DNA of 64,000 nt from NCBI GenBank assembly GCA_019637225.1, contig JAHBWC010000046.1:1-64000 (forward strand). Reading direction: 5' to 3'. The notes under the pieces were generated by a model that worked only from the letters and a program-made list of their open reading frames with translations, was not told the origin of the DNA and did not search any database. Within the stretch, counting starts at the first letter, position 1. The number at the start of each line of letters is the position of its first letter. The stretch comes from Labilithrix sp. (GTDB lineage Bacteria; Myxococcota_A; Polyangia; Polyangiales; Polyangiaceae). The position numbers and the translations under genes are program-made. Shown here one piece after another: positions 24,509 to 39,191 of this stretch.

Positions 24509-25021
24509 ATGCTCGAGCAGCTCTGGATCGACGTCGAGCGTGCCATCGTCGCGGCGTCACTCGGTGAGCTCACACCCGAAGACGCGCGTGAGCGGATGTG
24601 CGGCGCGCTCTCGAAGCAACTCGGCGTGAGCTGCGTGCTCGTCGAGGGTCACCACCCGAGCGGAGAGGACGGCGTGATGCGCGCCCTCATCGGAAGCTCG
24701 GTCGACGGGACAGCCACGACGTTGATCGTCTCGAGGACGGACGCGCTCGAGACCGCTGCGCTCGCGCGGCTCGCGCGGCTGTTCGATCTGCTCCTCGAGA
24801 GCACGAACCCGGCCGCGAGGAGCGCGAGCGCCCTCCATCGACTGCGCAACGACCTGGCCGCGGTGCAAGTGAACGTGGAGTTCGTCGAGATGGTGATGTC
24901 GGACGCCGAGGCCGAGCCGACGCCGGAGCGACGCGGCGAGGTGATGACCGCGCTCGCCCACGCCGCGAGGGTGTGTCGCGCGCTGTCGAGGTCGCTGCGT
25001 CCGCTCGCCCCTTCCGCCTAG
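24509..25021 (+). CDS. Stand-alone DHp-like (histidine kinase phosphotransfer) protein
   Basis: 170 residues. The start is ATG 24509 (GTG 24506 is equally possible). Residues about 1-100 form a small sensor-like or GAF-like region (LGVSCVLVEGHHPSGEDGV...TTLIVSRTDAL). Residues about 110-165 read ALHRLRNDLAAVQVNVEFVE, an H-box with the H-x-x-R-N pattern of histidine-kinase dimerisation domains, followed by a second helix (RRGEVMTALAHAARVCRAL). There is no HATPase domain, so it cannot phosphorylate by itself. It could relay phosphate or dimerise with a kinase. It lies at the left edge of the GTPase/Roadblock signalling island and ends at a hairpin shared with the convergent PDZ gene. Confidence 0.6.
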   Translation: MLEQLWIDVERAIVAASLGELTPEDARERMCGALSKQLGVSCVLVEGHHPSGEDGVMRALIGSSVDGTATTLIVSRTDALETAALARLARLFDLLLESTNPAARSASALHRLRNDLAAVQVNVEFVEMVMSDAEAEPTPERRGEVMTALAHAARVCRALSRSLRPLAPSA

Positions 25022-25050
25022 GGCAGAACCTCCGCCGAGCGCTCCTCGCG

Positions 25051-25072
25051 CGCGGACCTCAGGAGGTCCGCG
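25051..25072. terminator. Bidirectional hairpin with a stop codon in the loop
   Basis: CGCGGACCT (25051-25059) and AGGTCCGCG (25064-25072) form a 9-bp stem around CAGG. The minus-strand stop codon of the PDZ gene (25059-25061) overlaps the loop. It sits between two convergent genes. No T-run is seen. Confidence 0.6.
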
Positions 25073-25409
25073 ACGGGTCCTTCTCTTCCTCGACTTCGCC
25101 CGCCAGCCGCAGCGTGACGAGCTCCGCGAGGATCGCCGCCGGATCGGCCGCTCTCCCCGGCTCGCTGTACGAGAGCTCGGCGACGCGCTCCTCCCCCGCG
25201 CGGAAGACGACCACCTCCATGCCGTCGTCGCGGAGACTCTTCGCCTCCACGTAGTCCATGACCGTGCGCGTCCGCATCCCGTTGACCGAGAGGAGGATGT
25301 CACCGTAGCGAACCCCCGCGCGCGCGGCTGGCGTTCCCTCGAGCGCGCCGAGGACCGGCAGCCCCTCGAGCGCCTTGGCGAGATCGAACAGCGGTTTGCG
25401 CGCGATCAT
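25059..25409 (-). CDS. Small single-PDZ-domain protein
   Basis: 116 residues from ATG 25409, with GGAGG upstream. The longer open frame reaches through the hairpin spacer and was rejected. Residues about 15-90 form a PDZ domain: GLPVLGALEGTPAARAGVRYGDILLSVNGMRTRTV with the canonical G-x-R-x-GD motif, then YVEAKSLRDDGMEVVVFRAGEE. There is no signal peptide, so it is cytoplasmic, and it may scaffold C-terminal tails of neighbours. It lies downstream of the response-regulator/PATAN/Roadblock gene in the same direction, separated by a spacer with three hairpins. It may be expressed from the same transcript at a different level. Confidence 0.8.
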   Translation of the reverse strand: MIARKPLFDLAKALEGLPVLGALEGTPAARAGVRYGDILLSVNGMRTRTVMDYVEAKSLRDDGMEVVVFRAGEERVAELSYSEPGRAADPAAILAELVTLRLAGEVEEEKDPSRTS

Positions 25410-25443
25410 CCGAGGCCTCCTCCAGTCTGTCCCGACCTCTTCG

Positions 25444-25517
25444 CCGGCGCACGCACAATCCCTCGTGCGCCGGGGTGCCGGAGCGGAGGCAGCTCCGCTC
25501 CGGTGGACGGAGTCCAC
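25444..25517 (-). other. Three successive perfect hairpins in an operon spacer
   Basis: Hairpin 1: CCGGCGCACG (25444-25453) pairs with 25464-25473. Hairpin 2: CCGGAGCGGAG (25478-25488) pairs with 25493-25503 across GCAG. Hairpin 3: GTGGAC (25503-25508) pairs with 25512-25517. They fill most of the 124-bp gap between the response-regulator gene and the PDZ gene. They could terminate, attenuate or process the transcript. Confidence 0.6.
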
Positions 25518-25533
25518 GGAGGTGACGGGCGCT

Positions 25534-25893
25534 TCAGACCTGGAGTTCCTTCTCCACGTCGGCGAGCGCGATGCGCGCCATCGCGAGGTTCGAGCGCTGG
25601 CGATCGAGCGCGAGGTAGAAGAAGATCGTGGAGCGCGCGCGGAGGGGGCGGATCAGGTGGTACTGCTTGCCGAGCGTGATGAGGATGTCCTCGATGCCGT
25701 CCTTCAGCGCGAGGTTGCCCATCGTCTTGCGCTTCGCGCGGACGACCTCCGTGTTGCCCGCGGCCGCGACCTCCAGGTTGATGCCTCCTCCTCCTTCCGA
25801 GCCGAGGAGCATGCCGCTCTCGGAGTCGACCAGCGCCGCGCCGACGAATCCGTCGATCTGATTGAGCTTCGTGAGACTGTCCTTGATGTTCAT
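25534..25893 (-). CDS. Possible internal-start Roadblock/LC7 protein
   Basis: An in-frame ATG at 25893 (MNIKDSLTKLNQIDGFVG) is preceded by GGAGG (25899-25903 on the minus strand), five bases away. This is a better ribosome-binding site than that of the full-length gene. The 119-residue product would be a complete stand-alone Roadblock, closely comparable in layout to the separate Roadblock gene at 28411. Dual products from one gene, a receiver-coupled and a free form, are inferred. Annotation pipelines would miss the short form. Confidence 0.5.
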   Translation of the reverse strand: MNIKDSLTKLNQIDGFVGAALVDSESGMLLGSEGGGGINLEVAAAGNTEVVRAKRKTMGNLALKDGIEDILITLGKQYHLIRPLRARSTIFFYLALDRQRSNLAMARIALADVEKELQV

Positions 25894-26760
25894 GGTGACC
25901 TCCGGTGGCTGCACATGCCGTGGTGATGGGTATGTCGTCGATGAGATGCCCTGAGGGCTGCTCTCGTCCGTGAGCTGATCGAAGAAGGCGTCGACGTCGC
26001 TCTCGGGTGGAGGCGGCGCCTGGGACTGGGTCCAGCCCTTCGTGGTCGAGTGAGGCTCGTCGCGGCGGCGACGCTCGTCGATGCGGCGGCAGCTCTCCAT
26101 GAGGAGCTCCTGCCAGTCGGATTGAATGGAGCGCTCCGGCGCCTTCGCGCCGATCCGCATGCGGAACTCGCCTCCGCTCCACATCATGATCTGGTAAAAA
26201 GCGTCGTCACCGCGCGCGTCCACCGTGGCCGCGTGGAGGATCGCTCCGCGGTCGAACCACAGGCGCCCTTCGCCCGAGTGGTGGTCGACGACCAGCATTC
26301 CGGTCGCGCTCGAGAGCACGTAGAGCTGCACGATGTCCGGCAGCGTCTGCACGGAGATCGCGCCCGAGAAGCCGACCGGCCGAGCCGCGAGCGACTCGTC
26401 GACGAGCTCGAGGAATCGCTCGAACTCGAAGGGCTTCTCGATGAAGCCCGTGTAGGGCGCTCCGACGATGCGCTGGATGTCCGCCGTCTGGAACGCCGTC
26501 ATGACGACGACCGACAGCTCGGGCTGCTCGAGGCGCGCGGCGAGGATCAGATCGATGCCGCTCATGCCGGGCATGCGAACGTCGGCGACGAGCAGATCGA
26601 CCTGACCCTTGCGCAGCCGTTCGAGCGCGGCCTCGGCCGTGTTCTCCGTGTCGACGATCCAACTTGGACGAGCGCGCCCGAGCCGGTTCGAGAGAGACCA
26701 TGCGAGGACCTCCTCGTCGTCGACGAGGACGATCCTGCGTGAGTCCGCCGTCATCGTCAT
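25534..26760 (-). CDS. Response regulator - PATAN (DUF4388) - Roadblock fusion protein
   Basis: 408 residues from ATG 26760. Residues 1-125: receiver domain with acidic pocket VDDEE, phospho-acceptor D60 (LLVADVRMPG), T (MTAF) and K (EKPF). Residues about 135-240: PATAN/DUF4388 (LSSATGMLVVDHHSGEGRLWFDRGAILHAATVDARGDDAF). A Pro/Ser linker follows. Residues about 290-408: Roadblock/LC7 (KLNQIDGFVGAALVDSESGMLLGS, with ITLGKQYHLIRPL). Phosphorylation at D60 could control GTPase-binding Roadblock activity. A strong internal start (see separate entry) can also give the Roadblock part alone. It is divergent from the coiled-coil GTPase gene. Confidence 0.88.
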   Translation of the reverse strand: MTMTADSRRIVLVDDEEVLAWSLSNRLGRARPSWIVDTENTAEAALERLRKGQVDLLVADVRMPGMSGIDLILAARLEQPELSVVVMTAFQTADIQRIVGAPYTGFIEKPFEFERFLELVDESLAARPVGFSGAISVQTLPDIVQLYVLSSATGMLVVDHHSGEGRLWFDRGAILHAATVDARGDDAFYQIMMWSGGEFRMRIGAKAPERSIQSDWQELLMESCRRIDERRRRDEPHSTTKGWTQSQAPPPPESDVDAFFDQLTDESSPQGISSTTYPSPRHVQPPEVTMNIKDSLTKLNQIDGFVGAALVDSESGMLLGSEGGGGINLEVAAAGNTEVVRAKRKTMGNLALKDGIEDILITLGKQYHLIRPLRARSTIFFYLALDRQRSNLAMARIALADVEKELQV

Positions 26761-27021
26761 CGCGCTCGACGCGAAGCACCCCGTGTGCCATCGCGAAACG
26801 CGCGTCTCCGCGGATCGTGGGCTTCGCGCGTGACCGCCTGCCGTGTCCCGATTCTGCACAAGGCGTCCAGCGCATGGACGAGCGACCGGTCGCGGGCCCG
26901 CCGTGCGCCGCGCCCGCCGCCACCGCTACCGCGGATCGCCGCGCGCGCTCCGCGTGGAACGCTCGTTGCGAGGGACACCGACTCGAGCCGGCCCGACGGT
27001 GGGCGCGCTCGAGAGGACACG

Positions 27022-28368
27022 ATGGCCTACCTCAACGTCCGCGAGCGTAAGATCGAGACGAAGATCGCGTACGTCGGCCCCGGCCTCGCCGGCAAGACGA
27101 CCAGCCTTCATCGCATCAAGAGCGACGAGGCGCGAGGACGAGCCGGCGACGTCGCGCTCGAGGGCGACACGCTCTCGCTCGAATGGCGCCCTCTCCAGAT
27201 GGACCGGTTCAACGACTGCGACCTCGCGGTGAAGCTCGTCGCCTCGAAAGGAGCGATCTCGACCGATCGGCTGGACGGGCTGCTCGAAGACGCCGACGGC
27301 GTCGTCGTGGTCGTCGACGCGACGCCGTCCGCTCAAGAGGAGAATCGACGCGCCGTGATGCTCGTGCGCGAGGCGCTCTCGCGAACGAGCGCCCCGTCGG
27401 TGCCCGTCGTCGTGCAGCTGAACAAGAGCGACCTCGCGGACGCGCTCCCCGCCAGCGAGGTCGCCAGGGCAATCGCGGTGAGTGAGGACGACGCCGAGCG
27501 CGAGTGGCCCGTGGTCACGGCTTCGGCGGTGCGCGGCGAGGGCGTCGTCGAGGCGCTCGAGATCGCGCTCGCCAGCGTCATCGAGGCGATGAAGGCGAAG
27601 GCCCAGGCCGGCTCGACCGCCGCGATCGCGCCTAAGATCGAGCACAATCCGCTGCTCGGCGCGCTCCGCGACATCCTTCGCGAGACGGTGTCGGAGCACA
27701 TGGCCGCGGTGAGGCACGAGATCGCGGAGGCCGTGACCGCGAAGCTCGGACAGGCGCACGACGCGATCGAGGAGCTCCGCGCGGAGATGCGGATGCTCGC
27801 GAAGGAGAGAGAGAGAGCGGTCGAGGCCCAAGCGGCCGCGATCACGGAGCTCGCGCGCCTGGTCGCGGAGGTCCACGCTGCGTCGCTCCAGGGTTGCACG
27901 CTCGAGGACCTCGCCGCGAGCGAGGCGCGCCTCAGGGACGGCATGGCCTCGCAGTCGCGGGTCGATCGCGAGCACATCACATCCGTCGCCTCGGTGCTCC
28001 GGAGGAGCGTCGAGACCATCGCGGTGGACGTGAAGAAGCAGGACACGCTCGAGCGACAGACGCGACTCTTGACGGAGCTCGGCGCGCTTCAGGCGAAGGT
28101 CGACGCGCTGTCGGCCGCGGTCGAGCCCGCCGCCGTCGCCGTCAGGGGCGTACCGGCTCAGATCGGCGCGCTGGAAAAGGTCGTGGAGCGCGGCCTCCAC
28201 GGCACGCTCGTGCCGCGGCTCGCGAAGCTCGAGGACTCGGTGCAAGTCATGCACGTCGACTCGAGCGAATCGTTCCAGCGCACCGACGCACGCACGAGCG
28301 AGATTCAGGGTGGCCTGAACGAGCTCCTCGAAGAGCTCAGGCGCCGCAAGAAGGGCTGGTTCAGCTGA
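27022..28368 (+). CDS. MglA-like small GTPase with degenerate G3 and long coiled-coil tail
   Basis: 448 residues from ATG 27022. Residues 1-185 are an MglA/Ras-like G domain: P-loop GPGLAGKT (19-26), NKSD (134-137) and a TASA-type G5. At the G3 position, where MglA has VPGQ, it reads VASKGAIS (73-80), so the usual switch II motif is absent and hydrolysis or switching is doubtful. Residues about 205-440 are long amphipathic helices (AEMRMLAKERERAVEAQAAAITELARLV), a coiled coil for oligomerisation. It ends in RRRKKGWFS. The next gene is a Roadblock protein 42 bp downstream. MglA-type GTPases use Roadblock proteins such as MglB as partners in polarity and motility. Confidence 0.82.
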   Translation: MAYLNVRERKIETKIAYVGPGLAGKTTSLHRIKSDEARGRAGDVALEGDTLSLEWRPLQMDRFNDCDLAVKLVASKGAISTDRLDGLLEDADGVVVVVDATPSAQEENRRAVMLVREALSRTSAPSVPVVVQLNKSDLADALPASEVARAIAVSEDDAEREWPVVTASAVRGEGVVEALEIALASVIEAMKAKAQAGSTAAIAPKIEHNPLLGALRDILRETVSEHMAAVRHEIAEAVTAKLGQAHDAIEELRAEMRMLAKERERAVEAQAAAITELARLVAEVHAASLQGCTLEDLAASEARLRDGMASQSRVDREHITSVASVLRRSVETIAVDVKKQDTLERQTRLLTELGALQAKVDALSAAVEPAAVAVRGVPAQIGALEKVVERGLHGTLVPRLAKLEDSVQVMHVDSSESFQRTDARTSEIQGGLNELLEELRRRKKGWFS

Positions 28369-28410
28369 CCGAACGGCTGAACGCGAACGACAACCGGAGG
28401 AGAGACATCC

Positions 28411-28782
28411 ATGGCCAACGACAAGGAAGTGACCGAAGTCTTCGAGCACTTCGCCAATGACATTCCCGGCTTCATCGGGGCATCGCTCGTCGACCTCGAC
28501 TCGGGCATGACGCTCGCCGTGAAGGCGAGTCGACCGGACTTCGATCTGGCCGTCGCGAGCGCCTACAACAGCGAGCTCGTGAAGCAGAAGATGAAGATCA
28601 TGAAGGCTCTCAACCTCAAGACCAACCTCGAGGACATGATCCTCACGCTCGGTGACCAGATCCATTTCTTGAGGATCGTCTCGCCCACGATGTTCATCTA
28701 TCTCGCCGCCGAGCGCTCGGTCGCGAACATCGCGATCGTCCGCACGGTCGTCAACAAGCACGCCGCGCGCGTGATGGACTGA
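28411..28782 (+). CDS. Roadblock/LC7 (MglB-like) protein
   Basis: 123 residues; GGAGGAGA precedes the ATG. It is a complete Roadblock/LC7 domain: FANDIPGFIGASLVDLDSGMTLAVKAS, central helix, then ILTLGDQIHFLRIVSPTMFIYLAAERSVANIAIVRTVV. Roadblock proteins bind small GTPases, and MglB activates MglA in Myxococcus. Here it follows the coiled-coil GTPase and precedes a second, Roadblock-like small gene in a plus-strand series. It closely resembles the Roadblock part of the response-regulator fusion. It is cytoplasmic. Which of the two island GTPases it serves cannot be told from sequence. Confidence 0.9.
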   Translation: MANDKEVTEVFEHFANDIPGFIGASLVDLDSGMTLAVKASRPDFDLAVASAYNSELVKQKMKIMKALNLKTNLEDMILTLGDQIHFLRIVSPTMFIYLAAERSVANIAIVRTVVNKHAARVMD

Positions 28783-28793
28783 CGGAGCCGGTC

Positions 28794-29171
28794 GTGAACC
28801 TCGACGGCATCATGGAAGATGCGCTGAAAGGGGGCCCTGACGCCGTCGCGATCGCGTGCGCGGACGTGCGCGCCGGTTTCGTGCTCGGGGCCTCGGCTCG
28901 CGGCGACGCCGAGCGCGATGCGGCGACCAGCGCGGCGGCGTGCGCCGCGCAGCTCTGCGCGACGCCACGGCTCGGCGCCGATCCCGACTGTGACGAGGAC
29001 GTCGACGGAACGAGCGCGCTCGTCGTCTCCTCGAGCTGGATCCACGCGTACGCCCGCGTCGCTCGGAAGCCGGAGCTCGTCATCGTCGGCGTTGCTCGAG
29101 GCGACGCCAACGTCGCCCTCCTCCTCGACTGGGTGAAACGCGTCGCGGGTGGGCTCGAGGCCGTGGCGTGA
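28794..29171 (+). CDS. Small protein, possibly a divergent Roadblock fold
   Basis: 125 residues; GTG start at 28794, twelve bases after the previous stop. The layout, IMEDALKGGPDAVAIACADVRAGFVLG followed by ELVIVGVARGDANVALLLDWVKRV, recalls the beta-alpha-beta pattern of Roadblock proteins (final strand, then N.a.LL helix), but identity is low. The stop overlaps the GTG of the PATAN gene (GTGA), so the two are coupled. If it is Roadblock-like, the operon has two partner modules in tandem. The function is otherwise unknown. Confidence 0.5.
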   Translation: MNLDGIMEDALKGGPDAVAIACADVRAGFVLGASARGDAERDAATSAAACAAQLCATPRLGADPDCDEDVDGTSALVVSSSWIHAYARVARKPELVIVGVARGDANVALLLDWVKRVAGGLEAVA

Positions 29172-30034
29172 CGGCGCCGGTCTCCTCCCGAGAGACCGGC
29201 CTCCAGTTCGCGGTGCGCAACGCCGTCGACGTCTGCGCGTTCGTCGATCGTCTCTCCCACGACGCCGCGGGCGAGATCCTCGTCGCGCGCGAGGGCACCT
29301 TGGCCCGCGGTGCCGTCTTCGTCGAGGGTGGACGGGTGTGCTGGGCCGCGGCGCGCGGCCTCGCGCCCCGACTCACCGAGCTGCTGATCAGGTCGTCGGG
29401 CGTCGACGCCGAGACCATGGAATCGAACTTTCGTCACTGCAAGCTCGCGGGAGTCCCGCTCGGCGAGCTGCTCGTCGCGCGCGGGCTCGTGCGCGACGCC
29501 GAGCTTCGCGCCGCGCTCCTCCAGCACACGATCGAGTCGATGGACGCACTGTGCCACGAGGACGCTTCGGCCTCCTGGCGTCCCCGTCCCGGCGGGTACA
29601 GCCCACGGTTCACGTTCACGACCTCCGAGGTCCTCGCCCGTTCGCTGGGGCACGCGCACCGCGGGCTCGCGGCCGCCTCCGATCGCGCGCTCGACGTCTT
29701 CTCGAACGCTCCTCCGGGCGAGTGGGGCGCTGCGTTCATCCGGGGCGGGGCATTCGCTGCGCCGTCGCCGATCGCCGCGCGCGGCTTCCTGCCCGAGACG
29801 GCGGCCGCCGTGCTGCGCGTAGGCAAGTGGGCGGCATCGGCGCTCGATGTCGCGGCCACGTTCCAGAGCGAGGACGCCTTTCTCACGGCGATGGAGGCCG
29901 GCGGATCCTCGCTCGTCGCCTGGCGCCACGACCAGACGATCATCGCCGGTCGCGTGTGGGCGCAGGGCCCCGCGCGCATCCTCAACCACCGCGCGACGCT
30001 GCGACGGCGCGCGCGAACGGCTTCCCAGGACTGA
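29168..30034 (+). CDS. PATAN/DUF4388-type protein
   Basis: 288 residues; it starts at GTG 29168 overlapping the previous stop. Residues about 30-80 (GEILVAREGTLARGAVFVEGGRVCWAAARG) have the DUF4388/PATAN look: strand, G-x-x-G, E-x-G-R-x-x-x-A. The following helices (LLIRSSGVDAETMESNF...LGELLVARGLVRDAELRAALLQHT) resemble the general secretion pathway E-like N-terminal/PATAN helical extension. The rest is helical without known motifs. PATAN domains accompany receivers, Roadblocks and GTPases in myxobacteria and cyanobacteria. It lies between the Roadblock pair and the second GTPase. Confidence 0.6.
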   Translation: MTAPVSSRETGLQFAVRNAVDVCAFVDRLSHDAAGEILVAREGTLARGAVFVEGGRVCWAAARGLAPRLTELLIRSSGVDAETMESNFRHCKLAGVPLGELLVARGLVRDAELRAALLQHTIESMDALCHEDASASWRPRPGGYSPRFTFTTSEVLARSLGHAHRGLAAASDRALDVFSNAPPGEWGAAFIRGGAFAAPSPIAARGFLPETAAAVLRVGKWAASALDVAATFQSEDAFLTAMEAGGSSLVAWRHDQTIIAGRVWAQGPARILNHRATLRRRARTASQD

Positions 30035-30079
30035 GCGGTCCGAAGCCGAGCGTGAGGCTCCCAAGACCGAGGCGTGAAG

Positions 30080-31603
30080 ATGGCTGTCTTCGATCCGTCG
30101 GAACAGAGAATATGCGTGCGCGTCGTCTACGACGGCGCCGCGGGCGCCGGCAAGACGACCAACCTGAGGCAGCTCGGAGGTCATTTCGCCGCGCAGCGGA
30201 CGACGGAGGTCTCGTCCCCCGCCGAGCTCCGTGGACGCACGCTCTACTTCGACTGGCTGCAGATCGCTGCAGGCGCAGTCTGCGGCTTCCCGCTCATCTG
30301 TCAGGTCATCAGCGTTCCGGGCCAGGCCGCCTTCACGGCGCGTCGCCGTCACTTGCTCGCCGCCGCAGACGTCGTCGTCTTCGTCTGCGACAGCTCGCGG
30401 AGCGCGGTGCGACGCGCGCTCGATGCCCTCCTGCTCGCAGACGAGCTGATCCTGCCCACGGGCGAGCCCATGCCGGTCGTGATCCAGGCGAACAAGCAGG
30501 ACCGGGTCGACGCGATCGACGGCAAGGCGCTGCTCGCGGCCGTACAGCGCCCCTCCGTCCACGTCGTGGAGGCGATCGCGACGGAGGGCATCGGCGTCCT
30601 CGACACGTTCGTCTCCGCCGTCAGGACGGCGGCGCGGGCCATCCAGGGTCGCGTCGATCGCGATGAGCTGCGCATCCCCGTGCGGCGCGCGGAGGACGAG
30701 CACCAGCTGCTCGCGCAGGTGGCGTCGGTCCCCATCGATCGCTACGGCGCCGCCGAGCTCTTGCTCGAAGAGGCGAGCGCCGCGTGCCTCATGGAGGTCG
30801 AGCCGAGGCCCCAGGCGATCGTCGTGGAGCCTACCGACGAGCGCCGGAGGCCCGCCGAGTCGGGGAGCGTCGACGTGGCGCCGCTGCCGAACGCCGAGGT
30901 CCCCACCGGATTCATCTGGCCAGCGCACACCGGGCGCGCGATGTTGCGCACCCTCGGCCTCGACGAGGTGGTCACCGTGGGGCCGACCGGGGTAAGCCAC
31001 GCCACCGAAGGGCACGTCCTGTCGACGTCGCTCGAGTCGTGCTTCGCCGACCCCGACGCCGCGCGACAAGCGCTCGTCCGCGCGGCGCGGGAACGAACGC
31101 AGCTCGAGTCGCTCCTCGTGAGCGACACCGTTCTGGTCGTGCAGCCCGCGGAGAGCGGCTCGTTTTGGCTCTGGACGGTCACTCCGCGAACCGATCTCGT
31201 CGCGAAGTGGCTCGCCCACGATCGTCCCACGCGGACCGAGCTGCTCGGCTCGGCGATCGTGAGCGCGGTGTCGGTCGCGCTGCGTCACGGGCTCGCGTTC
31301 ACGCCGAGCATCCACGCGTTCGGGGTGCAGCGAGGCAGCGTTCGGTACGCGGGCGCGACCGCCGCCACGGAGGCGCGGGTCGAGTCGGCGATCGCCCTGC
31401 TCCTCGGAGCGATCGCCGACGTCTCGAAGATCGACGACGCCGACGTGGACCTCTTCGTCGAGGTGCTCGAGCGCAGGATCGAGACCCAGCTGAGCGCCGA
31501 CGAGATCGCCGCGATCGCCGGCGACTGTCCTCCAGCGGCCGGCCTCGACGGGGCGAGGGCCCGCCTCATCCGTACGATCCGACGCGTCGGCGAGGCAGCA
31601 TGA
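30080..31603 (+). CDS. MglA-like small GTPase with long C-terminal extension
   Basis: 507 residues from ATG 30080 (GTG 30074 is an alternative; GAGG is better spaced for the ATG). The G domain is intact: P-loop GAAGAGKT (19-26), VPGQ (79-82), VFVCDSS after it, NKQD (138-141). As in MglA, TLYFDWL precedes switch II. Residues about 200-505 contain a domain beginning TGFIWPAHTGRAMLRTL, seen in other myxobacterial GTPases but unnamed, with a Trp-rich strand block (FWLWTVTPRTDLV). It is cytoplasmic. Its stop overlaps the histidine-kinase start (ATGA), tying GTPase and kinase output together. Confidence 0.85.
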   Translation: MAVFDPSEQRICVRVVYDGAAGAGKTTNLRQLGGHFAAQRTTEVSSPAELRGRTLYFDWLQIAAGAVCGFPLICQVISVPGQAAFTARRRHLLAAADVVVFVCDSSRSAVRRALDALLLADELILPTGEPMPVVIQANKQDRVDAIDGKALLAAVQRPSVHVVEAIATEGIGVLDTFVSAVRTAARAIQGRVDRDELRIPVRRAEDEHQLLAQVASVPIDRYGAAELLLEEASAACLMEVEPRPQAIVVEPTDERRRPAESGSVDVAPLPNAEVPTGFIWPAHTGRAMLRTLGLDEVVTVGPTGVSHATEGHVLSTSLESCFADPDAARQALVRAARERTQLESLLVSDTVLVVQPAESGSFWLWTVTPRTDLVAKWLAHDRPTRTELLGSAIVSAVSVALRHGLAFTPSIHAFGVQRGSVRYAGATAATEARVESAIALLLGAIADVSKIDDADVDLFVEVLERRIETQLSADEIAAIAGDCPPAAGLDGARARLIRTIRRVGEAA

Positions 31604-32805
31604 TGCGGTGGACGACCGACCACCCACGCCTCGTCGCGGCGATCCGTCGCGCGTCCGACGCTCGGCGTCCGTCGACCGCCGCCGTGCAGGCCGTCAACAG
31701 CTCGACAGAGGCGCTGGCGGAGAGGATGCTCGCGCGTGAAGCGTTCCACCACGCCGTCCTCGACGGCATCGAGATGGGCATCGTCACGACGGACCCTTCG
31801 GGGACGATCACCTTCGTCAACCGTACCGGCCGCGATCTGTTGCACCTGAGCGAGGCGAGCGGCGGTGACGTGCGCGGCATCCTCGGTCTCCGACGCTCGC
31901 CCGAGGAGCTCTTGCAGGCCACGCCGAAGCTCGCCTACGTGCTCACCACGCTGGCCGGCCACGAGATCGACCTCGAGCTCTCCGTGAGCCGCGCCGACGG
32001 ACGGGGCGGCGAGGCGGGCTACTTCTTCATCTTCCGTGACATGCGCGAGGAGAAGACGCGCTCGGCGGAGCGCGAGCGCTTCGAGCGACTCGTCGCCATC
32101 GGCACGATGGTGGCGGGCTTCGCGCACGAGGTGCGCAATCCGGTCGCCGCCCTTCGCTCCCTCGCGGAGTCTCTCGCCGAGGAGCTGTCGGACGCGAAGG
32201 TGACGGTGCCGCACGTCAGCCGGATGCTCCAGGTCCTCGAGCGGATCGAGCGACTGGTGCGTACGTCGCTCCAGTTCGGCCGGCCGGCAGCGCCGCGACG
32301 CACGCGAAAGCGCCCGTGGACGCTGGTCGCCGAGGCCCTCGGCGAGACCGGTGTCCGAACGCGCGCGCTGGGTGGAGAGATTCGGCTCGACATCGGACCC
32401 GAGCTCCCCGACGTCTTCGTCGACGATACGCAGCTCGTCCAGGTGCTCGTCATCCTGATCGACAACGCCCTCGACTCGACCGGTTCACCGGGCGGCGTGC
32501 TGGTACGCGTGGTGCGCGGACACTCGACGCGCGACGCGCTACCCCTCGCGCAGGATCGAGCGAAGGACGACAGCCCGCCACCGAACAGGCCCGTCGTGCG
32601 CTTCGAGGTTCGCGACAACGGTCCCGGAGTCCCCGCGGAGATCCTCGGACGCATCTTCGACCCCTTCTTCACGACGAAGGCCTCCGGGACGGGACTCGGC
32701 CTGTCGATCGCTCAGCACATCGTGAGCGAAAACGGCGGATCGCTCGAGGTGAGCTCGCCACGTGGAGGCCCGACGACCTTCGCGGTCGTCATCCCGGCGA
32801 GCTGA
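31600..32805 (+). CDS. PAS-domain sensor histidine kinase
   Basis: 401 residues; ATG 31600 overlaps the GTPase stop by four bases. PAS domain about 45-150 (AVLDGIEMGIVTTDPSGTITFVNRTGRDLL). DHp with H176 in MVAGFAHEVRNPVAALRSL. CA domain with N-box (LIDNALDST), G1 (DNGPGVP), F-box (FDPFFTTK) and G2 (GTGLGLSIAQH). There is no membrane segment, so it is a cytoplasmic NtrB-type kinase. The next gene, on the opposite strand and convergent, is a sigma-54 activator, its most likely response regulator. Translational coupling to the GTPase suggests GTPase-modulated kinase activity, which is an inference. Confidence 0.92.
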   Translation: MMRWTTDHPRLVAAIRRASDARRPSTAAVQAVNSSTEALAERMLAREAFHHAVLDGIEMGIVTTDPSGTITFVNRTGRDLLHLSEASGGDVRGILGLRRSPEELLQATPKLAYVLTTLAGHEIDLELSVSRADGRGGEAGYFFIFRDMREEKTRSAERERFERLVAIGTMVAGFAHEVRNPVAALRSLAESLAEELSDAKVTVPHVSRMLQVLERIERLVRTSLQFGRPAAPRRTRKRPWTLVAEALGETGVRTRALGGEIRLDIGPELPDVFVDDTQLVQVLVILIDNALDSTGSPGGVLVRVVRGHSTRDALPLAQDRAKDDSPPPNRPVVRFEVRDNGPGVPAEILGRIFDPFFTTKASGTGLGLSIAQHIVSENGGSLEVSSPRGGPTTFAVVIPAS

Positions 32806-32826
32806 GCCGACGAGGCGACGAGCGCC

Positions 32827-34260
<1,434 letters not shown>

Positions 34261-34602
34261 GAGGCCAACGCTCACTATAACTCGAGAGCACCTCGGGCCT
34301 CGACCGGTTCTTGCTGCGGCGGAGGCAGATGCGAGAGCGATCCGCGCTCGCGACGACGGATTCTCGCGAATACGAAGCGCGTTCCGCGAGCGCGGAGAGA
34401 CTTGTCCAGATTCTGGACTGACGTCGTTCGATGACAGCTGAGCTGCGGACGCGCTTCGCAGACTCGACCGTGCAGTCGGCGGGAGGCTCTCGGTGACGGG
34501 TGCGCTAGCATCGCGCCGATGCTCGCCGTGACCTCGAGCGGGCATCCTCCCTCTCGTGCCTTCGATGGGCCGTGAGGCGGCGCTGCCCTCTCTCCGCGGT
34601 CG
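34261..34602. other. Divergent intergenic region with one palindrome
   Basis: No gene was found. The stretch holds the minus-strand start region of the sigma-54 activator (TATAGT on the minus strand, 34274-34279) and a 15-bp palindrome GTCCAGATTCTGGAC (34404-34418). The hybrid-kinase gene starts at its right end. Confidence 0.5.
34404..34418. promoter_or_regulatory. Palindrome GTCCAG-ATT-CTGGAC, possible operator
   Basis: Perfect 6-bp arms around ATT, in the spacer between the divergent sigma-54 activator and hybrid kinase genes. The position suits an enhancer or operator site for the adjacent NtrC-type regulator. Binding is inferred only. Confidence 0.45.
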
Positions 34603-36963
34603 ATGACGAGCAACACGCAGCACCTGCATTCTCCGGTCGGGGTGATCTCCGGTGTCGACGACGAGATCACGTCCGCCGACGACACGTTCCTCCAGATGCT
34701 CGGGTACAGCCGGGAGGAGTTCGAACGCGACGGGCTCGACTGGCGGAAGCTCACGCCGCCGCAGTACGCCGTTCGCGACGATGCCCAGATGCGCCGCGCG
34801 CTCGAGAGTCTCTCGTCCGGAGGATTCACCGAGCCGTACCAGAAGGCGTTCATCCGCAAGGACGGCACGCTCGTGCCCGTGCTCGCCCTCGGCGCCTACG
34901 TCGACGGCTCGAAGAGCGCGTGGCTCGGCTACGTCGTCGACCTCTCGTCACCGCCCGGGCTCGCGTCACCGCCCGAGCCCGTCGCGCGGATCGGGCAGCC
35001 GCGACCCGAGGAGTTCTACGCGCGCCTGCTTCGCGAGCTCGTGCGCGAGCGGACCCGCATGGTGGCGATGCTCGACAACACCCACGCGCTCATCTGGGGC
35101 GTGGACAACGAGGGGCGCCTCCTCGCGGCCAACGCCGCGTTCCAGGCGGCGCAGCGGATCGTCACAGGTCGCGACGTCTCGGTCGGCGAGACGCTGCTCG
35201 GTCCGCCGCACCTCCCGCCCGAAGTGGTCGAAGTCTGGCGATCCGGGCTCGCCCAGGCGCTGGCGGGAGAGCGCGTCTCGAAGCGGGGCATCCTCGCCAC
35301 GCCCGAACGACAGCTTCACTTCGACAGCGTGTTCTCGCCCATCGTCGATCACCAACAGGGCGTCGCGGGTGTCGCGGTGGTCGCGCACGACGTGAGCGAG
35401 CGCGTTCAGGTCGAGGACGCGCTTCGAAAGAGCGAAGCGCGCTTTCGAACCCTCGCCGCCGCTTCACCGACCGGAGTCTTCCTGACCGACGCGACCGGCT
35501 CGGTCCTCTACGTGAACCCTCGAATCGCGCGCATCTGGGCCATGGACCCGGAAGAGATGTTCGGCCGCGGATGGACACGTCGAATCCATCCGGACGATCG
35601 CGATCGCGTCGAGCGCGAGACGCAGCTCGACGCCCCCGAGGACCGCGACTACGAGCAAGAGTACCGGCTGCTCCTCCCCGACGGGTCGGAGCGGCACGTC
35701 CACGCGTGGATCGCGCCCGTCCGCGAGGGCGCGAGCATCACCGGCTTCGTCGGCTGCGTCCAGGACGAGACCGAGCGCCATGCCGTCGCCCTCCAGACGC
35801 GACAGCGCGAGAAGATGGAGTCGCTCGGCCGTCTCGCCGGGGGCATCGCGCACGACTTCAACAACATGCTCGCGGTCGTCTTCTCGCACGTCGAGAGCGC
35901 GATGGAGGAGACGCGCCCCGACGCGAGCTTGCGATCGAGCCTCGAGGAGATCCTCGTCGCGGCTCGGCGCGCCCGTGACCTCGTGCGCCAGATCCTCACC
36001 TTCAGTCGGAGATCCGACCGGTCGCTGGCGCTCGTCGACCTTCGTGCCGTCGTCCTCGAGGGGCTCCGGCTCCTTCGCTCGACGCTCCCGGCGACGATCG
36101 CGCTCGCGACGAAGACGCCGTCGGTCCCGGTCGTCGTCCGCGGCGACGCGACGGGCCTGCAGCAGATCCTGGTGAACCTGTGCACGAACTCGGCCCGCGC
36201 GATGAGCAATCGAGGGACCATCTCGGTCCGACTCGACGCTGTCGGCTGCCCGCCGGACGGAAACGCGGTCCTCACCGTCTCCGACACCGGGTGCGGGATG
36301 ACCCCCAAGGTCCAGGCGCGCATCTTCGAGCCCTTCTTCACGACGAGCAGCGTCGGCCAGGGCACGGGAATGGGACTCGCTGTCGTCCACGGCGTCGTCA
36401 CGGCTCACGGCGGAACCATCGACGTCTCGAGCGCGCCGAAGAAGGGAGCGACCTTCCGTGTGTCGATCCCACTGGTCCGCGGCGTCGTGAACAAGAGCGC
36501 ACCGCCGCCCCCCTCACCTTCCGTCGCGCGCAAGGGGCGCGTCCTGCTCGTCGAGGACGACCGCGGCGTCGCGCACGGCGCGACGGCGCTCCTGAAGCGC
36601 TCCGGCTACGACGTCACGCACGCCGCCAACGGCATCGAAGCGCTCCGGGTCTTCTCGGCCGCCCCCGCGGCGATCGACGTCGTCTTGAGCGATCTCGCGA
36701 TGCCGGACCTCGCCGGCGACAAGCTTGCACAGACGATCCACATCGTGCGGCCCTCGTTGCCCATCGTGCTGATGACCGGCTTCAGCGAGCTCTTGAACAC
36801 CGACGACCTCCGCGATCTCGGAGTGATCGCGACCCTCGCGAAGCCGTGGACCTCGAACGAGCTCCTCACCTGCATCCAGGAGGCCCTCGAGGGTGTCCCG
36901 GAGACGGAGGGCGACGGGTGCGCCGATCCGGGAGAGGCGCCGCGAGACGATCCCTCTTCGTGA
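34603..36963 (+). CDS. Hybrid histidine kinase (three PAS, HisKA, HATPase, receiver)
   Basis: 786 residues. PAS1 about 8-112 (TFLQMLGYSREEFERDG), PAS2 about 145-260 (MLDNTHALIWGVDNEGRLLAANAAF), PAS3 about 278-395 (TGVFLTDATGSVLYVNPRIARIWAM). DHp with H417 in RLAGGIAHDFNNMLAVV, the HDFNN type typical of hybrid kinases. CA domain with N-box, SDTGCGM (G1), FEPFFTT and GTGMGLAVVHG. C-terminal receiver about 645-765 with D697 (VVLSDLAMPD) and K (AKPWT). There are no membrane segments. The kinase would autophosphorylate and pass phosphate to its own receiver, with the onward partner unknown. It is divergent from the sigma-54 activator. Confidence 0.92.
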   Translation: MTSNTQHLHSPVGVISGVDDEITSADDTFLQMLGYSREEFERDGLDWRKLTPPQYAVRDDAQMRRALESLSSGGFTEPYQKAFIRKDGTLVPVLALGAYVDGSKSAWLGYVVDLSSPPGLASPPEPVARIGQPRPEEFYARLLRELVRERTRMVAMLDNTHALIWGVDNEGRLLAANAAFQAAQRIVTGRDVSVGETLLGPPHLPPEVVEVWRSGLAQALAGERVSKRGILATPERQLHFDSVFSPIVDHQQGVAGVAVVAHDVSERVQVEDALRKSEARFRTLAAASPTGVFLTDATGSVLYVNPRIARIWAMDPEEMFGRGWTRRIHPDDRDRVERETQLDAPEDRDYEQEYRLLLPDGSERHVHAWIAPVREGASITGFVGCVQDETERHAVALQTRQREKMESLGRLAGGIAHDFNNMLAVVFSHVESAMEETRPDASLRSSLEEILVAARRARDLVRQILTFSRRSDRSLALVDLRAVVLEGLRLLRSTLPATIALATKTPSVPVVVRGDATGLQQILVNLCTNSARAMSNRGTISVRLDAVGCPPDGNAVLTVSDTGCGMTPKVQARIFEPFFTTSSVGQGTGMGLAVVHGVVTAHGGTIDVSSAPKKGATFRVSIPLVRGVVNKSAPPPPSPSVARKGRVLLVEDDRGVAHGATALLKRSGYDVTHAANGIEALRVFSAAPAAIDVVLSDLAMPDLAGDKLAQTIHIVRPSLPIVLMTGFSELLNTDDLRDLGVIATLAKPWTSNELLTCIQEALEGVPETEGDGCADPGEAPRDDPSS

Positions 36964-37034
36964 TCGGCCACGTGTCCCTCGAGGTTCGACCGCCGCGCTA
37001 GGACGCGCGCGCCGGGCTTGGTATTGCGGTAGCC

Positions 37035-39191
37035 GTGAAGGTTCCTGCGCTCTCCCCCGGAAGGTGGCTTCTGGTCGGAGCGGTCGGCTGCCTGCTCGCT
37101 GCCGTCCTGACGGTGTTCGCGGCCACGCGCGCGCCGTGGCTCGGCCTCACGCTCGCGCCGCCGTCGACGGAGGGTGAGGCCGGCGTGCGGATCGTGTCGG
37201 CGCGCGGCCCGTCGGCGGAGGTGCCCGCCGGCACGACGCTCGTCTCCGTCGCCGTCGAAGGAGGACCGTCGGTCGAGCTCGAGCGCACCGACCTGATCGA
37301 GGAGCCGGACTACTTCGATCGGTACGCCGACATGGCCAGGTTCTTCCACCGGCAGTCGGAGCTCGTGGAGGTGCTCCGGCACCCTCGCGTCGTGCTCGCC
37401 CTCCGGTACGACGGCGGCCCGACCGAGTCGTTCGTCGTGGAGCCCGCCGCGCGCCGTCCGCTCTCGGCGTTGCCGGGCGTCTTCTGGTTCCAGCTCTCGG
37501 CGGGGAGCATCGGCTTCTTCGTCTCGCTCTGGGTCTTCGTGCTCCGGCCGCGTGTCGTCGGCGTCCAGATGTTCGCCCTCGCGGGAGCGATGATCCTCGG
37601 CTTCACGGCGCCCGCCGCGATCTACAGCACGCGCGAGCTCGCCATCGACGGCGGGCTCTTCCGTCTCCTGTCGTCGATGAACCACCTCGGGGCGAACGTC
37701 TTCGGGATCGGGCTCGTCGGCATCTTCGTGGTGTTCCCGGCGCCGCTCGCGAGGCCTCGCGCGCTCTGGCTCCTCCCGGCCGTCTTCATCCCCTGGTTCG
37801 TCCTCGACGCCACGTGGCTGGCGCGCGACCAGAGCTGGGGCTCGCGCGCGCCGATCGTGCTCGAGCTCTTGCTCGCGGTCGCCTTCGCCGTCGTCCAGTG
37901 GCGACGCGCGCGCAGCGATCCGAGGGCGCGCGCGTCGCTCCGCTGGTTCGGCGTCTGCGTCCTGACCGGCGCCGGCCTCTTCGTGGTGAGCGTCGTCGGC
38001 ACGTCTCTCCTCGGGATGTTCCCGCCCATCCCGCAGGGATATTCGTTCGGCTTCTTCCTGCTGATGCACGTCGGCCTCGCGCTCGGCCTGCGGCAGACGC
38101 GGCTCTTCGAGCTCGACGAGCTCGCCTACGTCGTCCTCTTCTGGGTCGTCGGCGCGCTCGCGCTGGTCGGGCTCGACGCCGCGCTCCTTCTCCTCCTCGA
38201 CACGAACCGCCTGCTCTCGTCCGCGCTGGCGCTGTTCGTGCTCGGCCTCGCGTACCTGCCCGTGCGCTCGTGGGTGTGGTCGAGGGCGCTCTCGCGGCGC
38301 ACCGTCGACGAGGAGCGGCTCTTCCGGAGCGTCCTCGACGTCGTCTTCGCCGCGATCCCGGAGGACCGGGTCCGCCGCTACCGTGAGCTTTTCGACGCGC
38401 TCTTCTCGCCTCTCGAGATCGAGCCGGCGGGCGAGGGTGAGGTCCGCGAGGTCGCGGTGACGGACGGCGGCCTCCGCATGATCGTTCCCGCCGTCAGCTC
38501 GCTCCCGGCCCTGCGCCTCGCGTTCCCGTGGCGCGGGCGCGGCCTCTTCGGCGAGCGGCACGCCAAGCTGACGGTGTTGCTCCTCGAGCTCGCCGAGCAC
38601 GCGGAGAACGCACGCAGCGCCTTCGACCGGGGCGTGCGCGAAGAGCGCGCGCGTGTGGCGCGCGATCTCCACGACGACGTCGGCGCCGCGCTCACCACCG
38701 CGCTCTACCACGAGGATCCCGACGAGATCCGCCAGACCGTGCGCCTCGCGATCGGGGAGATGCGCTCGATGGTCGATCAGCTCACGGGCTCGAGACCGCG
38801 GCTCTCCGACATTCTGGGTAACCTTCGACACGAGACGACCCAGCGCCTCGCGGCCGCGCGCATTGCGCCGAAGTGGCCGCTGCTCGACTTCGGCGACGCG
38901 ACGATGCACCCGGCGGTCGCCCGCAACTTCACCTCGATGGTGCGCGAGATCGTCTCGAACGTCGTGCGCCACGCCGGCGCGAGCACGCTGACCGTCGAGG
39001 TCCGCCGCGACGGCGAGGAGTTCGTCGCGACGCTCACGGACGACGGGAGCGGCTTCGACGTCGACGCGCCCGGCGAAGGCAACGGCCTCCGCAACCTGCG
39101 TCGCCGCGCCAAGGACGTCGGTGGCACGATCCGGTTCGCGCGGCGCGACCTCGGTACCGAGGTGACGATCGCGCTACCTCTCGACGTCTAG
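37035..39191 (+). CDS. Membrane histidine kinase of the HisKA_3 (NarL-partner) type
   Basis: 718 residues; GTG start. One helix (residues 12-30) is followed by a periplasmic ~100-residue segment resembling a degenerate PDZ domain (GLTLAPPSTEGEAGVRIVSARGPSAEV). Seven or eight helices then lie between about 150 and 410. H-box RVARDLHDDVGAALTT with H546. The DHp is short: after ALYHEDPDE it goes directly to the second helix. HATPase with EIVSNVVRHAG, DDGSGFD and GNGLRNL. Such kinases normally pair with LuxR/NarL regulators, and none is adjacent, so it is an orphan. The signal is unknown. Confidence 0.88.
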   Translation: MKVPALSPGRWLLVGAVGCLLAAVLTVFAATRAPWLGLTLAPPSTEGEAGVRIVSARGPSAEVPAGTTLVSVAVEGGPSVELERTDLIEEPDYFDRYADMARFFHRQSELVEVLRHPRVVLALRYDGGPTESFVVEPAARRPLSALPGVFWFQLSAGSIGFFVSLWVFVLRPRVVGVQMFALAGAMILGFTAPAAIYSTRELAIDGGLFRLLSSMNHLGANVFGIGLVGIFVVFPAPLARPRALWLLPAVFIPWFVLDATWLARDQSWGSRAPIVLELLLAVAFAVVQWRRARSDPRARASLRWFGVCVLTGAGLFVVSVVGTSLLGMFPPIPQGYSFGFFLLMHVGLALGLRQTRLFELDELAYVVLFWVVGALALVGLDAALLLLLDTNRLLSSALALFVLGLAYLPVRSWVWSRALSRRTVDEERLFRSVLDVVFAAIPEDRVRRYRELFDALFSPLEIEPAGEGEVREVAVTDGGLRMIVPAVSSLPALRLAFPWRGRGLFGERHAKLTVLLLELAEHAENARSAFDRGVREERARVARDLHDDVGAALTTALYHEDPDEIRQTVRLAIGEMRSMVDQLTGSRPRLSDILGNLRHETTQRLAAARIAPKWPLLDFGDATMHPAVARNFTSMVREIVSNVVRHAGASTLTVEVRRDGEEFVATLTDDGSGFDVDAPGEGNGLRNLRRRAKDVGGTIRFARRDLGTEVTIALPLDV

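Follow-up and report, generated by a model that had tools for sequence, protein, structure and literature searches.

A conserved but patchy gene cluster joins two-component proteins to Roadblock proteins and a Ras-like GTPase in Labilithrix and its relatives

The DNA considered here (the window) is a stretch of 64,000 nucleotides from a draft genome of Labilithrix sp. (8.2 Mb in 182 contigs, 83% complete), with a G+C content of about 70-75% in 2-kb steps. Within it lies a cluster of genes for two-component, Roadblock, PATAN, and MglA-like proteins, whose gene calls were redone using codon-position G+C and comparison with relatives. The cluster begins with two genes on the reverse strand. The first (25059..25409) encodes a protein of 116 amino acids with one PDZ domain (Pfam PDZ_6, E 3.8e-9) and is a neighbor of the Roadblock gene in relatives; the second (25534..26760) encodes a 408-residue fusion, RR-PATAN-Rb, which is composed of a response-regulator receiver (about 26401-26733), a PATAN domain (about 26071-26364), and a Roadblock (Rb) domain (25534..25893), and which keeps its full length in relatives. 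Divergent from these, on the forward strand, are GTP1 (27022..28368), with a degenerate MglA-like domain (about 27022-27606), a variable part, and the C-terminal residues KKGWFS; Rb2, a free Roadblock protein as judged by its predicted structure (28411..28782); Rb3, a remote Roadblock-like protein that is kept in the cluster (28794..29171); PATAN2, a second PATAN protein (29168..30034); GTP2 (30074..31603), which has an MglA-like G domain (about 30080-30643) and a C-terminal domain of predicted protein-kinase fold (30866..31552); and a PAS histidine kinase with HisKA and HATPase_c domains (31600..32805), which is kept in relatives. An NtrC-type sigma-54 response regulator, recognized with Pfam, follows on the reverse strand (32827..34251); its frame is open to 34629, and a start near 34251 agrees with relatives. 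A GTGA overlap at 29168 couples Rb3 to PATAN2, and an ATGA overlap at 31600 couples GTP2 to the PAS kinase gene. Both overlaps, like the PDZ, kinase, and sigma-54 regulator genes, had been noted in an original prediction made from the sequence of the window, and all are real.

Gene order was compared in 20 loci picked from 43 Rb2-like matches in 96 relatives, and in a second set of 11 named loci found with a GTP2 profile, several of which are the same contigs as in the first set. (Labels beginning with L denote loci in relatives and those beginning with G the relatives' genomes; C148 is a contig of the window's genome.) Outside the window's genome, the central part of the cluster, PATAN2 included, is present in seven distinct loci (L031, L032, L035, L036, L037, L039, and L052). 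Six of them carry the whole run GTP1-Rb2-Rb3-PATAN2-GTP2 in the same order, and L039 lacks only Rb2. The PAS kinase gene comes next after GTP2 in 6/7 loci (the contig of L037 stops after GTP2), all five loci whose contigs are long enough also have the divergent PDZ and RR-PATAN-Rb genes, and a sigma-54 regulator lies adjacent to or near the cluster in six loci (all but L037), on a side and strand that vary. Relatives that share the gene order, which the original prediction had proposed as its check, belong to two or more families and to several genera, and the named carriers are Labilithrix, Polyangiaceae, Myxococcales, and Deltaproteobacteria metagenome assemblies. Amino acid identities to the window proteins run from about 29% (GTP1) to 85% (Rb2), which argues that the cluster in relatives is not a recent copy.

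The distribution of the cluster is patchy. Any Rb2-like match occurs in 23 of the 96 relatives, and in a phylum-wide sample of 377 genomes, 22 (counting that of the window) have a match with E <= 1e-12. Reduced or split versions are seen in G003 (L044, L046, and L116), G006 (L034 and L040), the second cluster of G012 (L033), and G048 (L117), the last having RR-PATAN-Rb, GTP1, a short GTP2, and the PAS kinase, with no Rb2, Rb3, or PATAN2 matches. Several observations weigh against a single functional unit. Seven of the 11 other searched genomes of the same genus have no Rb2-like match; GTP1, PDZ, Rb2, Rb3, or PATAN2 is missing from some loci; the gene set of G006 is spread over several loci; and in G003 the genes for a DHp-like protein, PDZ, RR-PATAN-Rb, Rb3, the PAS kinase, and the sigma-54 regulator lie together, with GTP1 and GTP2 at two other places. 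The splits in G003 and G006 would suit an account in which an NtrB/NtrC pair and a GTPase/Roadblock operon are unrelated neighbors, adjacent by chance. That account is very improbable: the stop of GTP2 overlaps the start of the PAS kinase gene, the co-occurrence is repeated across families, and a receiver is fused to a Roadblock domain. The module is real and conserved, though patchy.

Related arrangements are found in another family of the order. At L084 and L085, GTP2, Rb2, a free Roadblock protein, a histidine kinase, PATAN2, an unfused receiver-PATAN protein, and a sigma-54 regulator are encoded by neighboring genes. At other places in the same two genomes (L135 and L136) there is an operon with the order histidine kinase, receiver-PATAN-Roadblock, Rb3, PATAN2, GTPase-kinase, and calcineurin-like phosphoesterase. 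Since the receiver-PATAN and Roadblock parts are separate genes of one cluster in L084 and L085, the fusion constitutes a Rosetta-stone link, and the arrangements at these four loci indicate that histidine kinase, receiver-PATAN, Roadblock, PATAN, and GTPase associate across families. Neither a GTP1 nor a PDZ gene was found at any of the four, and both look like additions in the window's lineage.

The receiver and PATAN domains claimed for the first part of the fusion both pass the Pfam cut-offs. The receiver matches Response_reg (PF00072) with an E-value of 6.6e-18, and its translation contains the acidic pocket, phosphoacceptor Asp, Thr, and Lys (DDE, VADV, MTA, and EKP); the PATAN domain matches DUF4388 (PF14332) with an E-value of 1.2e-18 (67.7 bits against a cut-off of 25). 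The Roadblock module at the end of the fusion is 44% identical to Rb2. It opens with an ATG (25891-25893), just upstream of which, on the same reverse strand, is the Shine-Dalgarno sequence GGAGGT (25898..25903; free energy, dG, -10.4), and a candidate free product of 119 amino acids would start there. Such a site is present in all eight fused genes of the close set. When each of 17 fused loci is counted once, 15 have the boundary ATG and 13 have a site with dG <= -6, those of L041 and L094 being weaker; with L135 (-5.6) and L136 (-7.4) added, a strong site is present in 14/19 fused genes. By comparison, among 207 internal ATGs in genes of the window, 12 have a motif word and 14.5% reach dG <= -6; of 645 linker positions, 14% reach that value. 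It is this comparison with internal ATGs and linker positions, made across related and so non-independent loci, that supports the site. In addition, L034 and L046 encode the Roadblock unit of the fusion as a separate gene, and L033, where the upstream frame stays open without receiver similarity, probably does the same. Two results argue the other way: the fused genes of L045 and L097 have no boundary ATG, and random recoding of the same peptides in the 15 remaining fused genes gives equally good sites (combined p 0.26). The linker peptides vary save for one Glu, whose codon forms part of the Shine-Dalgarno motif, and the recoding test is non-significant because that codon nearly forces the motif. 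On balance, the fusion gene is likely to yield a free Roadblock protein from the internal start, a signal that the original prediction had missed.

The predicted structure of Rb2 has the Roadblock fold, matching MglB and MglC as well as the Roadblock domains of Ragulator and Rag proteins, and together with its homology to the fusion module it bears out the claim of two clear Roadblock modules. Neither Rb2 nor the Roadblock domain of the fusion gives a hit to Pfam Robl_LC7 (PF03259), and no Pfam or NCBIfam family was found for Rb2 or Rb3. The sole PF03259 match in the genome (83% complete) is on C148, where a Roadblock gene adjoins an MglA-like gene in an mglBA-like pair; consequently, the cluster is not the organism's mglBA. 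This pair bears on the idea that the cluster is a cell-polarity or pilus/gliding regulator, that is, an extra MglA-type polarity switch. Polarity in M. xanthus is controlled by MglA, MglB, MglC, and response regulators (PMC7949163), and the type IV pilus regulator SopA was selected from a set of candidates that included two less conserved PATAN proteins (PMC11580455). However, the genome already has the pair at C148, and no pilus or gliding gene was recognized among the scanned cluster proteins, the wider neighborhoods being only partly annotated; a polarity role for the cluster is quite unlikely.

The assignment of Rb3 as a remote Roadblock protein is supported only through a chain of homology, with E-values computed for a ten-sequence set. 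In BLAST, Rb3 matches a protein of L135 (E 4e-9); that protein shares 31% identity (E 5e-20) with the Roadblock domain encoded next to it, and this neighboring domain in turn matches the Roadblock domain of the window (E 2.5e-4). The direct profile comparison of Rb3 with Roadblock is weak (E 0.0039, probability 8.7), a PDB profile search with Rb3 gave no Roadblock protein, and a PDB sequence search with the L135 version gave nothing relevant. The DUF4388 score of PATAN2 (14.2 bits) is under the 25-bit Pfam cut-off, but its L135 relative, to which it is 42% identical over 112 residues, scores 26.5 bits and is above it. Residues 68-117 of PATAN2 (window 29369-29518) also match an MshE-type cyclic di-GMP motif, with a score of 20.7 bits that is below the threshold of 38. 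Elsewhere, six consecutive Roadblock matches lie inside 7.7 kb of one genome (L090:1-7740).

Two MglA-like GTPases had been claimed for the cluster, and MglA is indeed the best PDB match of both GTP2 (E 1.8e-23) and GTP1 (E 1.8e-21), but they differ in the state of their G domains. The motifs of GTP2 in the window (GAAGAGKTT, RTLYFDW, SVPGQ, and NKQD) are those of a Group 1 type MglA. Among 15 GTP2-like proteins, the P-loop GxxxxGK[ST] is kept in all, VPGQ in 13 (the others having VPGH and VPGL), NKxD in 14 (one having NHQD), and the G2 Arg-Thr pattern in 13, with RTLFYDW in L084 and HTLYFDW in L034.

Unlike single-domain MglA proteins of about 200 amino acids, GTP2 is 509 amino acids long and carries an extra C-terminal domain, which the original prediction had overlooked. 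In the predicted structure this tail has a two-lobed kinase fold. All four kinase residues (the lysine, catalytic aspartate, asparagine, and metal aspartate) are present in L124 and L125 and in none of 11 GTP2 proteins of the window's lineage, in which the lysine and the metal aspartate are each kept in 0/11. Several results tell against this assignment. Foldseek comparison of the tail model with kinases gives TM scores of only about 0.3-0.4 (best E 6.4e-4); sequence searches gave no Pfam kinase hit, no Pfam or NCBIfam family for the GTP2 tail, and nothing relevant in the PDB for the GTP2 tail profile or the L124 tail; two lineage GTP2 proteins, L046 and L117, have no tail; and the catalytic aspartate and asparagine columns keep the residue in 3/11 and 1/11 lineage proteins, respectively, a pattern that reflects either uneven loss or an uncertain alignment. 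The kinase fold is thus a prediction from one model together with motif agreement in two relatives. Two further genes may be mentioned here. At L135 (6580-7323), a gene for a calcineurin-like phosphoesterase comes right after that of a GTPase-kinase with all four kinase residues, and a like protein follows the GTPase-kinase in L136. In a Holophagaceae genome, a single open frame (L060:6525-8918), as read from its translation, contains an intact MglA-like G domain, PAS-like and kinase-like parts, and a receiver, and appears to be another direct fusion of GTPase and two-component parts.

GTP1 is, from its motifs, a degenerate protein and not a normal GTPase. The switch II motif VPGQ is missing from 8/8 aligned rows and, by eye, from four further orthologues, and a full P-loop is seen in 1 of the 11 GTP1 proteins with an N-terminus, namely the window copy. 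Complete orthologues vary in length from 279 to 485 amino acids; the variable C-terminal part looks coiled-coil-like by eye, and Pfam and NCBIfam gave nothing useful outside the G domain. Nevertheless, all 13 orthologues, the window's included, end in K[KT]xWFx (28348..28365 in the window), and the coded KKxWFx pattern, with a TAA or TGA stop, has a single match in the genome (83% complete). A gene in a different genome, outside the 13 orthologues (L118:2060-5770), encodes an intact MglA domain, then about 1000 further residues that are coiled-coil-like by eye, and an end, EKKGWWRA, like the GTP1 tail. From this combination, the tail appears to be old, and GTP1 appears to have arisen by decay of a working switch. 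The PDZ protein is a candidate partner for the tail, although PDZ ligands do not usually end in S, T, A, or G. Of 96 genomes, the window's included, 8 have both PDZ and GTP1, 3 GTP1 only, 1 PDZ only, and 84 neither (PDZ E <= 1e-30 and GTP1 > 120 bits, limits set after the lists had been viewed); this co-occurrence says little about binding, because the genes are neighbors in the cluster.

The cluster is narrower than the unit of 15 kb originally drawn. A hybrid kinase (34603-36963) downstream of the sigma-54 regulator and the third kinase that follows it (37035-39191), both real genes, were rejected as members, as neither has an orthologue in the 20 and 11 related loci (up to about 21 kb each), where the hybrid kinase gave only partial matches of 25-31% identity and the third kinase had no match listed. 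The gene at 24509-25021, previously described as DHp-only, encodes a protein without an ATPase domain that has an HRLRN box and a HisKA match of E 0.057; an orthologue adjoins the cluster in one relative only (L044), and it was not retained as core. The proposed link of two-component proteins to a GTPase/Roadblock/PATAN switch is supported at the level of genes and domains, over this smaller extent and with the set split in two genomes.

How far the sigma-54 regulator belongs to the system is a separate question. The sigma-54 activator domain is common in the genome (73 matches), so that the presence of such a neighbor is by itself a weaker argument. Together with the changes in side and orientation of the gene among loci, this abundance favors a conservon-like system, in which the GTPase, under direct control by the histidine kinase and Roadblock proteins, would be the final output and the sigma-54 regulator only a frequent neighbor. 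Conservons do combine a histidine kinase with a Roadblock protein, a small GTPase, and a further protein whose domain is of unknown function (PMC4316618, PMC13343842). Against this, the cluster includes dedicated receivers, PATAN proteins, and a tail of predicted kinase fold. In addition, DUF742, the CvnC domain, is absent from the Pfam matches of the cluster proteins (for one protein, from its best 25 families). We judge this explanation unlikely.

Taken together, these comparisons lead us to favor, with moderate confidence, a conserved polyangial module of PAS kinase, sigma-54 regulator, RR-PATAN-Rb, Roadblock proteins, and GTP2 switch. In this module, the soluble, NtrB-like PAS histidine kinase would drive both the NtrC-like sigma-54 regulator, with transcription as a presumed output, and the RR-PATAN-Rb protein. 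Phosphorylation of the receiver would shift the pairing of the fusion Roadblock with Rb2, Rb3, and perhaps the short form from the internal start, and the altered pairing would set the nucleotide state of GTP2, the sole apparently working Ras-like GTPase, presumably through Roadblock-GTPase binding. GTP2 would then hand its state to the kinase-fold tail, which is possibly catalytic in two relatives and may be a protein-binding pseudokinase here, while GTP1, as a decayed MglA whose long C-terminal part finishes in KKxWF, would serve as a scaffold that does not switch, and the PDZ protein may hold it. A less probable reading is that the arrangement is a relay from two-component system to GTPase to kinase, in which a receiver-Roadblock protein under a histidine kinase controls a Ras-like GTPase with an attached Ser/Thr-kinase-like domain, the calcineurin-like phosphoesterase being encoded beside the version in which the catalytic residues are kept; in the window's lineage the kinase would have become a pseudokinase and the second GTPase a scaffold.

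A conserved gene set that physically joins phosphorelay, Roadblock, and Ras-like GTPase makes crosstalk between two-component systems and MglA-type switches testable with a few purified proteins. The GTPase-kinase fusion, should it be active in relatives, would provide a bacterial case of a relay from Ras to kinase; the decayed MglA, with its fixed tail, would represent a pseudo-GTPase scaffold in bacteria.

Several known systems resemble the cluster in part. Like it, the conservons (CvnABCD) have a histidine kinase, a Roadblock protein, and a Ras-like GTPase in one operon (PMC4316618, PMC13343842), but the cluster has receivers, PATAN and PDZ proteins, and a predicted pseudokinase, and no CvnC-type domain among its Pfam matches; moreover, conservons are described from Actinomycetota, whereas the relatives of the cluster are Myxococcota-type assemblies. 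In the part of their paper available here, Wuichet and Sogaard-Andersen describe conservons and, citing Makarova 2006, note that some Group 1 and Group 5 mglA genes lie near PATAN genes; this occasional proximity is reported there with no mention, in that part, of receiver-PATAN-Roadblock or GTPase-kinase fusions, a pseudo-MglA, or the internal start (PMC4316618). Nor did the open-access papers searched, among which most subscription papers are missing, yield a description of any of these four, and the apparent wiring of two-component sensing to a Ras-like switch with a predicted kinase-fold tail looks new. Rag GTPases are small GTPases on Roadblock-fold platforms, with Roadblock domains of their own fused to the GTPases, and the Roadblock-fold match of Rb2 resembles their seat on Ragulator, a likeness seen at the level of the fold. 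A further related system is the MglA/MglB/MglC-RomR module of M. xanthus, in which MglC, a Roadblock protein reported to have lost MglA binding, is recruited by the response regulator RomR (PMC7949163). RomR and MglC resemble a split version of the receiver-Roadblock fusion, but in the present cluster the two are one polypeptide, the GTPase has a predicted kinase-fold tail and is accompanied by an extra, decayed GTPase, a PAS kinase and a sigma-54 regulator lie in the cluster, and a separate mglBA-like pair is found elsewhere in the genome.

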